Shown: in pieces, positions 23,805 through 28,451 of the stretch
Position numbering within the stretch: position 1 is the stretch's first letter
How the letters are laid out: each line of letters opens with the position of its first letter
NCBI RefSeq assembly: GCF_003479425.1
Contig: NZ_QUHC01000001.1
Coordinates: 930,001-994,000 of the forward strand
Reading direction: 5' to 3'
DNA from: Odoribacter sp. AF15-53
GTDB taxonomy: Bacteria; Bacteroidota; Bacteroidia; Bacteroidales; Marinifilaceae
DNA length: 64,000 nucleotides
Made by a program: the position numbers and the translations under genes
The notes under the pieces: generated by a model
Told to the model about the DNA's origin: nothing
The model's database searches: none
Seen by the model: only the letters and a program-made list of their open reading frames with translations

Positions 23805-24566
23805 ATGAAGAAGCTAATAGATTTCACAGTCACAGAAAACAAAAGATTGAACCAGGACACCCTGTTACTGGTGTTACATTCGGATGAACTCCCGGATATA
23901 CAACCGGGGCAATTCGTGAATGTACGGGTGGATCATTCCCCTTCGACTTTTTTAAGAAGACCTATTTCCGTGCATGACGTGGACGAGACACGTGGATTGC
24001 TCTACCTGTTTATCAAGATCGTGGGCTGCGGCACTTCGACGTTGGGAGAATTGCAACCCGGAAACAAGGTAAACGTGATGCTGCCTCTTGGGAATCATTT
24101 CTCTATACCCGACTCCGGCAGGCCTTTACTGATCGGCGGGGGGTGCGGCGTGGCCCCGATGTTACATTTATCACGGATCATGAAAGCTAACGGCTTGTCG
24201 CCCGTGGTATTAATCGGGACCCGGACAGATAAGGATATCCTTCGGAGAGAAGAATTTGAAAAATACGCCGAGGTATACTATACCACGGAAGACGGTTCTT
24301 TTGGGGAGAAAGGTTATGTCACGCAACATTCCGTGCTGAATGAAAAGTTCGACCATATCTTTTGCTGCGGGCCGGAGGTTATGATGAAAGCGGTTGCAAG
24401 TTACGCGGCCCAAAATAATATTGATTGTGAAGTCTCCCTGGAAAATACCATGGCATGCGGAATCGGAGCTTGCCTGTGTTGTGTCACTGACACGAAGGAA
24501 GGTCACAAGTGCGTGTGTACGGAAGGTCCTGTTTTTAATATAAAAGAATTAAAATGGCAGATTTAA
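23805..24566 (+). CDS. pyrK: dihydroorotate dehydrogenase electron-transfer subunit
   Basis: 253 aa. FAD-binding N-terminal barrel ([11 protein letters not shown]), an NAD-binding segment starting [15 protein letters not shown], and the C-terminal [2Fe-2S] site with Cys residues in [10 protein letters not shown] and HKCVC. It passes electrons from the PyrD flavin to NAD+ in the class 1B enzyme. It overlaps pyrD by 13 bp, indicating coupled translation, and starts 29 bp after uvrA. Confidence 0.96.
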
Positions 24567-25459
24567 GTATAAATATCAACGGTTTATCATTAAAGAACCC
24601 CGTGTTAACCGCTTCCGGGACTTTCGGGTACGGAACTGAATTTCAGGATTTTATTGATCTGGAACGTCTCGGTGGATTTATAGTGAAAGGTACGACTCTC
24701 AAACACCGGGAAGGTAATCCTTATCCCCGCATGGCCGAAACCCCGGCCGGGATGTTGAACGCCGTGGGATTACAGAATAAAGGAGTTGACTACTTCATCG
24801 AGCATATCTACCCGACGATTAAAGATATAAAAAGTAATATTCTGGTAAACGTTTCCGGTTCTACCGTGGCTGATTACGTCACAACCGCAGAGAAAATCAA
24901 CGCGTTGGACCATATTCCCGCTATAGAATTGAATATATCCTGCCCGAACGTGAAAGAAGGTGGTATGGCATTCGGAACTAGCTGTGCTTCAGCCTCGGAA
25001 GTCGTAACGGAAGTTAGGAAAGTATACAAGAAGCATTTAATGGTCAAGTTATCCCCTAACGTCACGAGTATACAGGAAATTGCCTTGGCGGCAGAAGCCT
25101 CTGGTGCGGATTCCGTGTCTTTGATCAACACGCTAATGGGGATGGCAATTAATGTCAAAACCCGTAAACCGGTATTAAGCACGATTACCGGGGGATTAAG
25201 CGGTCCTTGCGTGAAACCGGTTGCTCTTCGTATGGTGTGGCAGGTTGCTAAAGCGGTTAAAATTCCGGTTGTCGGCTTAGGAGGAATCAGTTGCGCGAAT
25301 GACGCGATCGAGTTCTTGTTGGCCGGGGCATCAGCCATCCAAATCGGTACGGCCAATTTTATCGACCCGACGATTTCCGTGAAAGTTGTTGACGGGATAA
25401 ACGAATACCTGAATCAAAACGGATTCAAATCTGTCAAGGACATCATCGGACTGATATAA
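24554..25459 (+). CDS. pyrD: dihydroorotate dehydrogenase, class 1B catalytic subunit
   Basis: 301 aa FMN-binding TIM barrel. [11 protein letters not shown] near the N-terminus, [17 protein letters not shown], and the active-site Cys130 in [12 protein letters not shown]; Cys rather than Ser marks class 1. The C-terminal phosphate-binding part is [24 protein letters not shown]. It oxidises dihydroorotate to orotate in pyrimidine synthesis; with PyrK this gives the NAD-linked heterotetramer. Cotranscribed with pyrK, ending at a hairpin. Confidence 0.97.
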
Positions 25460-25540: not shown

Positions 25541-25585
25541 AAGAGGCCTATCGCCAAATAACGGTTTCGAGCGGCCTCTTTTTAT
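25541..25585. terminator. bidirectional terminator
   Basis: AAGAGGCC (25541-25548) and GGCCTCTT (25573-25580) with an A-rich left and T-rich right flank, between convergent pyrD and the XRE regulator gene. The 24-nt loop contains further short complementarity. Confidence 0.7.
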
Positions 25586-26019
25586 TCTTTCTCGTAATCT
25601 TCAAAACTCCCGTCTTCAAAAAACAAAATAATTCGTTTGATCTTCTTCGATGTTTTCGGGAGAGTCTTGATCATTTTTACCTGATCGTCTTCCTCTGAAA
25701 TTATACTACTTTTTTCCGGAATAACTGGAGTCACTTGTTTCTCGGAATTTTCATCCAAGTTAAATAACGTCGGTTCCTGTACCGGAGTTTTTTTTTCTTT
25801 CTCTACGGTTGAATCATCCATCGAGCCATTACCCGTGATCAACCAATTCAGACTAATATCCGGGTAAGCTTTCGCAATATTACTTATAATATCAAACCCC
25901 GGTTTATTTCTGCCAGCAAGAATATGAGATATTGTCGAGGCATTCACACCAATCATAGCTGCAAATTTGGTGGCAGTTAATCCCTTTTTCTCGATAATTT
26001 GGTTTAAACGTTCTTGCAT
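25582..26019 (-). CDS. XRE-family helix-turn-helix regulator
   Basis: 145 aa. N-terminal XRE domain (about 1-65) with TATKFAAMIGVNASTISHIL as helix-turn-helix, then the conserved SLNWLITGNGSM segment, a low-complexity acidic linker (70-115), and a C-terminal basic patch KTSKKIKRIILFFEDGSFEDY. No protease or ligand domain recognised. Its promoter -7 box is embedded in a perfect TTACA-NN-TGTAA motif, and further copies lie upstream, suggesting autorepression and control of the divergent aminopeptidase. That control is inferred. Confidence 0.9.
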   Translation of the reverse strand: MQERLNQIIEKKGLTATKFAAMIGVNASTISHILAGRNKPGFDIISNIAKAYPDISLNWLITGNGSMDDSTVEKEKKTPVQEPTLFNLDENSEKQVTPVIPEKSSIISEEDDQVKMIKTLPKTSKKIKRIILFFEDGSFEDYEKE

Positions 26020-26046
26020 AAGTATGTTATATTGTAAATCTTGAAT

Positions 26047-26141
26047 TTACAAATGTAATGATTCGATTCGAGAATTCAAAATTACATTTGTAATATGCGA
26101 GAATTACAGATGTAACACGAGAAAGACGTGGTCATTTGTAA
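26047..26141. promoter_or_regulatory. motif cluster 1 (candidate operators of the XRE regulator)
   Basis: Four copies: 26047-26058 TTACAAATGTAA, 26082-26093 TTACATTTGTAA, 26104-26115 TTACAGATGTAA, and a degenerate copy 26130-26141 GGTCATTTGTAA. Starts are 35, 22 and 26 bp apart. The first copy overlaps the -7 box of the XRE promoter. Confidence 0.65.
26050..26080 (-). promoter_or_regulatory. predicted XRE gene promoter (minus strand)
   Basis: On the minus strand TTTG (26080-26077), 19-nt spacer, TACATTTG (26057-26050): an exact fit to the Bacteroidota consensus. The start codon is about 30 bp downstream. The -7 box is part of a palindromic motif copy. Confidence 0.7.
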
Positions 26142-26501
26142 TGTTATTGTTTAGAACTGTAAAACGCTCGCTATCAAGATGTTTGCAATAAAAATGCCTC
26201 TTAAAATAATAAACAATAGTTTTGTTTTTACTAAAATGTTTATTTACTGCATGTTACTATATAGAAAACGTTGTTTCTTATGTGTTATTTAAACTTCAAA
26301 TAATGACACATAATAGCATGGTTTTCAATAACATAATATATCATTTTCACATTTATTCACTCGAATTATCATGAAAGATTCACGTTATGATTAGGATATA
26401 CTTAAACAATTACAATACAATATACATTATTATATACTGGAAATAAATGATTTAGAATTAAATGTTTCTATTTGTTAATGTACAATTTTATCCCGACTCA
26501 T

Positions 26502-26652
26502 TTCCAAATGTAATTATTACATTTGTGTAGAACACCCCTCCCCTTGCGATTTTATCGTGTTACATTTGTAATCCTCGTTTCTCATTCATTCCACTTTACA
26601 AATGTAATATTTTTCTATTTTGTAATCTCCTTTAAAAACTTTACATTTGAAG
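26502..26652. promoter_or_regulatory. motif cluster 2 (candidate operators near the aminopeptidase gene)
   Basis: Copies at 26502-26513 (TTCCAAATGTAA), 26517-26528 (TTACATTTGTGT), 26560-26571 (TTACATTTGTAA), 26596-26607 (TTACAAATGTAA) and 26641-26652 (TTACATTTGAAG). The third and fourth are perfect; the last overlaps the aminopeptidase -7 box. Confidence 0.65.
26619..26649 (+). promoter_or_regulatory. predicted aminopeptidase P promoter
   Basis: TTTG (26619-26622), 19-nt spacer, TACATTTG (26642-26649): an exact consensus match with the ATG 20 bp downstream. The -7 box coincides with the last motif copy of cluster 2. Confidence 0.7.
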
Positions 26653-26669
26653 AACTAAAAAATTAAACC

Positions 26670-28451
26670 ATGAATATACCCGAAAATTTAAGAGAATTGA
26701 GACGCATTATGGATCGTGAAAATATTGCGGCTTACATTATATCCGGAACAGACCCTCATAACAGTGAATATCTTCCCGCCCCGTGGCAACAGAGGAAATG
26801 GATCTCCGGCTTTACAGGATCATTTGGAACAGTCGTCGTGACGGCAAACGATGCCGGCCTGTGGACTGATACCCGTTATTTTATCCAAGCAGAACTGGAA
26901 TTGGCCGGGTCCGGCATAAAACTTCATAAATTACGGATTCCCGGAGCTGTAGATTATCCTCAATGGTTGGCCGAAGTGTTGGAACCGAACACGAAAGTGG
27001 GTATAGATGGTTTCTGTATGTCCGTTAGTGATGTACGTAATTTGAAAAACACGTTAGCCCCTAAAAATATATCAATTCAGGAACAAACTGATTTGTTGGG
27101 AGAAATGTGGCTGGATCGTCCGGCTTTCCCCATGGGAAAATTGATTCGTCTGGATACGAAATATGCCGGGGAAACGGCTGCCAGTAAAATAGCCAAGGTA
27201 AGAGAGTTCATCCGACGTAATCAAGGAAATGCCATGTTGTTCAGCTGTCTGGATGAAATAGCCTGGTTATACAATATTCGTTGTAATGATATTTCTTACA
27301 ATCCGGTTGCAATATCCTATGCTATCGTGGAGGAAAGCAAGGCACACCTTTTTATAAAACTGGATAAAGTGTCTCGTGAGGTCGCCGGACAACTGGAAGC
27401 GGACGGGATTGAATTACACGATTATCACCACTTGTTCCTCTTCTTGGATGAACAGGACAAAGATAACAGGTATTTGGTGGATACTAATACCTGCAACTAT
27501 GCCGTTTTTAATTATCTGGCAAAGAAATTCAACGTACGAGAGATAGAATCCCCGATTCCATTGATGAAATCCGTGAAGAATGAAATAGAATTAGAAGGAT
27601 TCAGATTAGCTTGCCGTAAAGACGGTGTTGCCTTGACAAAATTCTATTATTGGCTGGAAAACAAGTTGTCGACTCAAACGATTACAGAAATTGAGGCAGC
27701 GGAACAGTTAACCAAATTCCGTGCGGAAGACAAAGAGTATATTTCAGATAGTTTCGGTTGCATTTCTGCTTACGGGAAAAATGCAGCACTACCGCACTAC
27801 TCCGCAACACCCGAACAACAATCGGATATACACCCGAAAGGTTTGTATCTGGTTGATTCCGGTGCTCAATACATGCATGGCACGACAGACATTACCCGAA
27901 CGATGCCTTTAGGAGAATTAACTTCTTTAGAAAAAGAAGATTACACGCTCGTGTTGAAAGGAATGATTGATCTGAGTATGCTGTATTTCCCGAAAGGTTC
28001 CAAGGGATGTAACATTGACGTGGTTGCAAGGTTGCCTTTGTATATGAATCTGAGGAATTTCGGGCATGGAACCGGGCATGGCGTCGGCCATTTCTTAAAT
28101 GTACACGAAGGCCCTCAATCTATCCGGCCGGATTTAAAAAATCAGGAAATGTTACCGGGTATGGTGACCTCGAACGAGCCCGGATTGTATCGGGAAGGTT
28201 CGCATGGCATCCGCCACGAGAACCTGATCGTCTGTCAACCGAAAGCGATAAACGAGTTCGGTGAATTTTACCAGTTTGAAACAATAACCCTTTGTTATTT
28301 TGATACCTCTGCCCTGTTGGTTGAATTGTTGACTAAAGAGGAAATTAGTTGGTTGAACGCTTATAACGAGCGGGTTTATCAAGAGGTTTCTCCTTATTTG
28401 GAAGAACAGGTGAAAACTTGGCTACGGGATAAAACGAAAGCCATATTGTAA
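26670..28451 (+). CDS. Xaa-Pro aminopeptidase (aminopeptidase P family, M24)
   Basis: 593 aa, the long three-domain form. Two creatinase-like N-terminal domains (about 1-310) precede a pita-bread catalytic domain. Dinuclear metal ligands are visible: Asp in LVDSGAQY and TDITRTM, His in HGTGHGVGHFLNVHEGP, Glu in TSNEPGLY and RHENLIV. It removes N-terminal residues preceding proline and probably acts in the cytoplasm, as no signal peptide is seen. Divergent from the XRE regulator across the motif array. Confidence 0.96.
   Translation: MNIPENLRELRRIMDRENIAAYIISGTDPHNSEYLPAPWQQRKWISGFTGSFGTVVVTANDAGLWTDTRYFIQAELELAGSGIKLHKLRIPGAVDYPQWLAEVLEPNTKVGIDGFCMSVSDVRNLKNTLAPKNISIQEQTDLLGEMWLDRPAFPMGKLIRLDTKYAGETAASKIAKVREFIRRNQGNAMLFSCLDEIAWLYNIRCNDISYNPVAISYAIVEESKAHLFIKLDKVSREVAGQLEADGIELHDYHHLFLFLDEQDKDNRYLVDTNTCNYAVFNYLAKKFNVREIESPIPLMKSVKNEIELEGFRLACRKDGVALTKFYYWLENKLSTQTITEIEAAEQLTKFRAEDKEYISDSFGCISAYGKNAALPHYSATPEQQSDIHPKGLYLVDSGAQYMHGTTDITRTMPLGELTSLEKEDYTLVLKGMIDLSMLYFPKGSKGCNIDVVARLPLYMNLRNFGHGTGHGVGHFLNVHEGPQSIRPDLKNQEMLPGMVTSNEPGLYREGSHGIRHENLIVCQPKAINEFGEFYQFETITLCYFDTSALLVELLTKEEISWLNAYNERVYQEVSPYLEEQVKTWLRDKTKAIL

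Follow-up and report, generated by a model that had tools for sequence, protein, structure and literature searches.

A candidate operator merged with the -7 promoter box of an XRE regulator gene and conserved with that gene across Bacteroidota

Which protein would read a dense array of palindromes lying between two divergent genes, and to which of the two genes does the array belong? In the window, the whole 64,000-nucleotide stretch of Odoribacter sp. AF15-53 DNA that was analysed, the 650-bp gap (26020-26669) between an XRE-family regulator gene and the divergent aminopeptidase P-like gene pepP holds nine TTACANNTGTAA-like copies at two or fewer mismatches: five with perfect half-sites, two with one mismatch and two with two mismatches. 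These are the same nine that a preliminary description had counted as four perfect, one with a changed centre and four degenerate, its "four plus one" being the five copies with perfect half-sites. The features of the locus are listed below; the copies are motif matches and are given without strand.

25582-26019, minus strand: XRE (HTH_3) regulator gene, 145 aa; helix-turn-helix (HTH) at about residues 1-70, flexible linker, C-terminal beta-hairpin KIKRIILFFEDGSFEDY
26047-26058: putative operator, perfect, over the XRE -7 box
26050-26080, minus strand: XRE promoter, TTTG-N19-TACATTTG, -7 box at 26050-26057
26082-26093: putative operator, perfect, immediately upstream of the XRE -33 box
26104-26115: putative operator, half-sites perfect, GA centre
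26151-26162: putative operator, one mismatch
26502-26513: putative operator, one mismatch, pepP-side cluster
26517-26528: degenerate copy, two mismatches
26560-26571: putative operator, perfect, pepP side
26596-26607: putative operator, perfect, its end 11 bp upstream of the pepP -33 box
26619-26649, plus strand: pepP promoter, TTTG-N19-TACATTTG, -7 box at 26642-26649
26641-26652: two-mismatch copy over the pepP -7 box, palindrome not kept in relatives
26670-28451, plus strand: aminopeptidase P-like gene pepP, 593 aa, divergent from XRE; Creatinase_N and Peptidase_M24

All five perfect matches of the window fall within this gap. Allowing one mismatch, eight matches occur in the window, seven of them in the gap, against a shuffle mean of 3.14, and a count of eight was reached by 1 of 100 window shuffles, so the window-wide number is only mildly unusual and the unusual feature is the clustering. 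A stretch free of copies does separate the two clusters, as first described, although it runs from 26163 to 26501 and measures 339 bp rather than 360 bp. Both promoters are exact; the earlier statement that each has its -7 box inside a motif copy holds in full for XRE, whose box sits in a perfect copy, and in a weaker form for pepP, whose box sits in a two-mismatch copy only. Two further genes (23805-25459, plus strand) point towards the XRE gene and are, we assume by eye, pyrK- and pyrD-like, names that rest on their likeness to the genes beside XRE in a relative (L264), which match the order of annotated dihydroorotate dehydrogenase genes. Given these neighbours and pepP in the window, and holA with pyrKD in Bacteroides-type relatives, a phage immunity region is not supported. 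An unverified phage record from human faeces (L267, 2501-2956), which may instead be a bacterial contig, encodes a distant relative (25% identity). Its gene is preceded by a perfect copy at -101 and by several one-mismatch copies, among them those at -24 and -65 and others farther out, so that mobile copies may exist.

The XRE protein matches HTH_3 (PF01381) at 42.1 bits, against a curated cut-off of 23. In its AlphaFold2 model (mean pLDDT 71, pTM 0.43), the HTH of residues 1-70 is well predicted, residues 72-119 score mostly below 50, and a C-terminal hairpin is formed by residues 129-133 and 139-143, with a block confidence of 91 for residues 131-140. The hairpin sequence is near-invariant in 47 selected homologues and variable in more distant members. 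A Foldseek search with the model returned small HTH proteins (DdrO, 434 Cro, P22 c2, C.AhdI, C.Csp231I and SinR) at a best E value of 2.5e-3 and no match below 0.001, and a sequence search of the PDB gave weak matches only. The nearest proteins in the genome collection come from Butyricimonas, at no more than 69% identity, and in the protein collection the XRE protein belongs to a 90%-identity cluster whose 29 members represent 193 contigs.

The array is conserved with this gene. Among 16 XRE relatives from named genome records, ranging from Butyricimonas and Odoribacter to Tenacibaculum, Croceivirga and Aquimarina, 15 carry a perfect copy in the 600 bp upstream, and the 16 loci together carry 44 perfect copies where dinucleotide shuffles gave 0.13. 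The exception is a Rikenella metagenome-assembled genome (MAG; L012, 2258-2782). There, three perfect copies lie within the XRE coding sequence (offsets 40, 259 and 379), and it looks as if the array had moved into the gene.

A wider search with the XRE family profile A1 (E 1e-12) found at least 46 places in at least 43 of 296 genomes sampled across the phylum, these being lower bounds because up to 13 candidates were scored per genome; all 46 places were read. Members were defined as scoring at least 99 bits, a limit set after the gap between 99 and 66 bits had been seen. The preliminary description had proposed looking for the motif upstream of XRE orthologues, and there it was found: in 33 of the 40 members the first 600 bp upstream include a perfect copy (74 copies against 0.14 expected), and in 39 they include a copy at up to one mismatch (153 against 4.24 expected). 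In the family of the seed genome G001, 48 of 56 genomes have an XRE match at E 1e-10, and among the 29 loci read, which are 29 of the matches listed, a perfect copy was seen in 18 and one at up to one mismatch in all 29. Seven of the 40 phylum-sample members and 11 of the 29 family-sample members thus lack a perfect copy over the 600 bp upstream, and one member (L095) has no upstream copy even at one mismatch. The phylum sample contains G001 itself (locus L003), and related genomes across the samples are not independent; as some loci are one genome twice, upstream regions identical over the last 200 bp were merged, which reduced 85 to 77.

The six weak relatives, with scores of 66 bits or below, lack perfect copies upstream. 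One of them (L111) has a family-like HTH sequence and three one-mismatch copies; the other five have divergent HTH sequences and no one-mismatch copy. The Parabacteroides and Bacteroides orthologues show, over 600 bp, no perfect copy and either one or no one-mismatch copy, and the Phocaeicola orthologue has four one-mismatch copies and no perfect one over the same distance. The Parabacteroides and Bacteroides orthologues are annotated in the order holA-XRE-pyrK-pyrD, and inspection by eye suggests the same order for the unannotated Phocaeicola stretch; the regulator could thus be one of the core genes of Bacteroidales. These three records (L264, L265 and L266) are labelled as plasmids yet carry housekeeping genes, and may be chromosomal pieces.

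Starting from the motif leads to the same gene. Pairs of the form TTACANNTGTAA-N8..38-TTACANNTGTAA were found in 15 of 296 genomes, as against one of 296 for a backwards control pattern, and in 13 of the 15 (12 of 14 when the seed genome is dropped) a family XRE gene lies within the 3-kb locus, L068 and L069 being the two without. Six XRE-bearing genomes have between six and 21 perfect matches each, 68 in total, of which 21 lie in XRE gaps (5 of 11 in G001, 4 of 13 in G002). The 47 matches elsewhere compare with 46 for the backwards control; the equal frequency in unrelated regions that the preliminary description had named as telling against its reading was not observed.

In Butyricimonas-type genomes, these other matches are shared, ahead of a similar gene, by three genomes at most (comparison of G001-G004, G307-G310, G312 and the listed part of G313, with G005, G006, G302, G306, G311, G315 and the rest of G313 left out), which makes the XRE locus the main conserved target. 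A wider regulon was accordingly rejected for these genomes, in which single copies elsewhere are not widely recurrent. Three genomes, two of Butyricimonas and one of Sanguibacteroides (L116, L117 and L122), have a perfect copy that starts 50-54 bp ahead of dps, the other 27 of the 30 dps upstream regions read (of 33 matches) having none at up to one mismatch, and a copy lies upstream of an EamA-type gene in three genomes; both sets of sites look lineage-specific or due to chance. One Odoribacter genome has copies before an rsmI-like gene and a gene that by eye is pckA-like.

Control genes point the same way. Of the 30 other HTH_3 genes read, out of 94 matches in eight array genomes, none carries a perfect copy upstream and four carry one with a single mismatch. 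Four family genomes carry pepP and XRE on separate contigs. The 600 bp upstream of these four pepP genes contain no copy at up to one mismatch, whereas three to seven one-mismatch copies, and no perfect one, lie within 700 bp of each XRE gene there; with perfect copies absent on both sides, the contrast is real but softer than elsewhere. In two genomes from that search in which pepP is linked to XRE, two one-mismatch copies (L190) and three perfect copies (L191) were seen. In other lineages the motif is kept at XRE genes beside a sensor kinase, Lrp, RarA or M14, and the eight family genomes without an XRE match are also without pepP. From these comparisons, the motif would belong to the XRE gene and not to pepP. 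The XRE protein, which the preliminary description had named as the natural candidate, came through the tests of conservation, of motif-first search and of control genes as the probable binder.

The gene on the other side of the gap varies. Of 55 family loci, 41 have a divergent peptidase gene, M14 carboxypeptidase-like in 32 and M24 pepP in nine; the remaining 14 show no M14 or M24 neighbour in the available flank, and many flanks are short (about 1.5 kb in L071-L099), so that divergent peptidases may be undercounted there. The profile used for M14 derives from 12 neighbours within this set of genomes, and Pfam confirmed M14 on six proteins. At 19 of 26 M14 loci with a gap below 360 bp, sites at up to one mismatch end 14-16 and 38-40 bp before the M14 start, and 17 of these 19 have an additional site 27-29 bp before the XRE start despite the varying gap; sites are again found close to each end of five gaps that measure 820-970 bp. 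At 19 of the 32 M14 loci, the M14 -7 box is part of TTAC[A/T]TTTGTAA, which begins 23-34 bp upstream of the M14 start; at the other 13 this palindrome was not seen. In relatives, the pepP -7 box drifts from the palindrome and the copies upstream of the box persist, so control of pepP would act from sites upstream of -33. The original suggestion that a bound protein would directly occlude both promoters is thus upheld at the XRE promoter and, in 19 of 32 cases, at the M14 neighbour; the pepP box is not conserved as a palindrome, and occlusion of the -7 box at pepP is weakly supported. At two loci, an Lrp/AsnC-type gene follows M14 (L147, 8199-8675) and a proline dehydrogenase gene lies near the XRE gene (L156, 6811-7980), neighbours that hint at peptide or amino-acid use.

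Judged on sequence comparison, the XRE protein is most likely a phylum-wide autorepressor that has TTACA-NN-TGTAA as its own operator and occludes its own -7 box, and it may co-control the divergent exopeptidase. The protein would bind the palindrome as a dimer, with one HTH for each half-site. A dimer on the gene-proximal copy would cover the -7 box TACATTTG and block RNA polymerase, resulting in autorepression. Spacings between adjacent copies are mostly 35-36, 24, 33 and 22-23 bp, and neighbouring copies at these distances would raise occupancy, probably cooperatively. In one subgroup of the family sample (L180, L183, L185 and L188), one-mismatch copies are tiled every 13 bp upstream of XRE, which suggests dimers side by side. 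Through the second cluster, at the far end of the gap, the same protein would control the exopeptidase, by occluding the -7 box at most M14 loci and from sites upstream of -33 at pepP, where the effect could be repression or activation. The signal may be related to peptides or amino acids. More tentatively, the operator could have grown from the Bacteroidota -7 box TACATTTG by completion to a palindrome, which would place polymerase and repressor sites in one, within a self-limiting or switch-like module whose exchangeable M24 or M14 exopeptidase couples peptide breakdown to the level of the regulator; the hairpin would then join dimers or dock the signal.

The choice between repression and activation at pepP bears on a possible, if rather unlikely, alternative: that the XRE protein acts as a repressor-activator switch, comparable to lambda CI, repressing itself from the -7 copy and activating pepP from the copies upstream of -33. 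The nearest perfect pepP-side copy of the window ends 11 bp before the -33 box, and relatives do not keep the pepP -7 box as an operator, as such a switch would have it, but the palindromic -7 box at 19 of 32 M14 loci argues for repression of both genes there.

The two-sided layout could also mean that a DNA loop bridges the clusters, as the preliminary description had envisaged, and at 20 of 21 compact M14 loci the distance between the two -7 boxes falls at 234-236, 244-246 or 254-257 bp (241 bp in the remaining one), classes about one helical turn apart. However, these loci are related and offer few independent lengths (11 of the 21 measure 255 bp), the distance between clusters varies widely, and with longer gaps (307 and 768-915 bp) included, 17 distinct lengths give a resultant R of 0.57 at a period of 10.5, four of 31 loci having yielded no distance. 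We regard looping as possible but unlikely.

That the copies are spare -7 boxes and the palindrome incidental is highly improbable, even though TTACATTTG includes the Bacteroidota -7 consensus TAnnTTTG (PMC7366714). Across the 77 distinct XRE upstream regions, the gene-proximal perfect copy has a TT centre in 47 of 48 cases, and with this centre the -7 box TACATTTG is formed. Among the other 113 perfect copies, the centre is TT (35), AA (27), AT (18), TC (10) or one of seven further kinds, so that 78 differ from TT when read in the XRE sense; the 27 AA centres make a -7 box on the other strand only and 51 centres make one on neither strand. Half-sites are retained while the centre drifts, save where a copy doubles as a -7 box, and this freedom outside the proximal copy argues for operators rather than spare promoters, as does the rarity of backwards pairs noted above (1 against 15 of 296 genomes). 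The reservation made at the outset, that some copies could simply be extra promoter boxes, is highly unlikely to account for the array. A -33 TTTG lies 17-22 bp before the embedded -7 box at 16 of 56 loci, ten of which are the window and L001-L009, a rate that fits the statement that Flavobacterium johnsoniae promoters have a -7 motif and no identified -33 motif (PMC7366714).

It is just as improbable that a winged-helix repressor of the BlaI/MecI/CopY type binds the array and the XRE gene is a mere target. The core TACANNTGTA is identical to the operator core published for CopY, BlaI and MecI, the CopY operator RNYKACANNTGTMRNY contains the same core as the array motif, and cop promoters carry one or two core copies (PMC7253601); a PF03965 protein is moreover encoded in 22 of the 25 array genomes searched. 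Three of these genomes (G051, G160 and G312, completeness unstated) are without a PF03965 match at E 1e-8, however, and motif-first pairs lie at an XRE gene in 13 of 15 cases. Within 300 bp upstream of PF03965 genes in array genomes, a perfect copy was found in none of 30 and a one-mismatch copy in two (30 of 45 matches read), and this binder was rejected on the lack of perfect copies and the presence of other palindromes instead. The commonest palindromes in these upstream regions (L234-L263) are AACTA-N6-TAGTT (15 of 30) and TAGTT-N4-AACTA (11 of 30). CopY, BlaI and MecI thus have the operator core in common with the array; their DNA-binding family is a different one, and they are not linked to it. 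The preliminary description had known of no regulon with this operator, which goes too far as regards the core (PMC7253601) and is right in that such repressors do not explain the array. The same core, TACANNTGTA, can be that of an XRE protein with no relation to these repressors, and annotation by motif only can mislead.

We recognised no description of this regulator or operator in Bacteroidota in the open-licence literature searched, and the exact motif strings gave no link to this regulator there, judged by titles and the starts of abstracts. Bacteroidota are a dominant phylum in the gut and in many seas, and to our knowledge an operator is known for few of their regulators. The present comparison predicts an operator together with its protein family and its promoter overlap over a wide range of the phylum.

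Among known systems, the HTH fold is shared with Cro/CI-type repressors (434 Cro and repressor, P22 c2, SinR and the C proteins of restriction-modification systems), which place several palindromic operators over their own and a divergent promoter. The XRE protein differs from them in its operator, in the C-terminal beta-hairpin carried on a long, low-confidence linker, and in its setting, with no phage or restriction-modification genes seen alongside and a peptidase neighbour in 41 of 55 loci. BldD of Streptomyces is an XRE-family autoregulator with a palindrome of the TNAC...GTNA type, but differs from the Bacteroidota protein in phylum and in its C-terminal domain. Beside these systems, the XRE gene described here would be a new case of an autoregulatory XRE repressor, one that stands out by its spread and by a predicted operator merged with the -7 box of its phylum.
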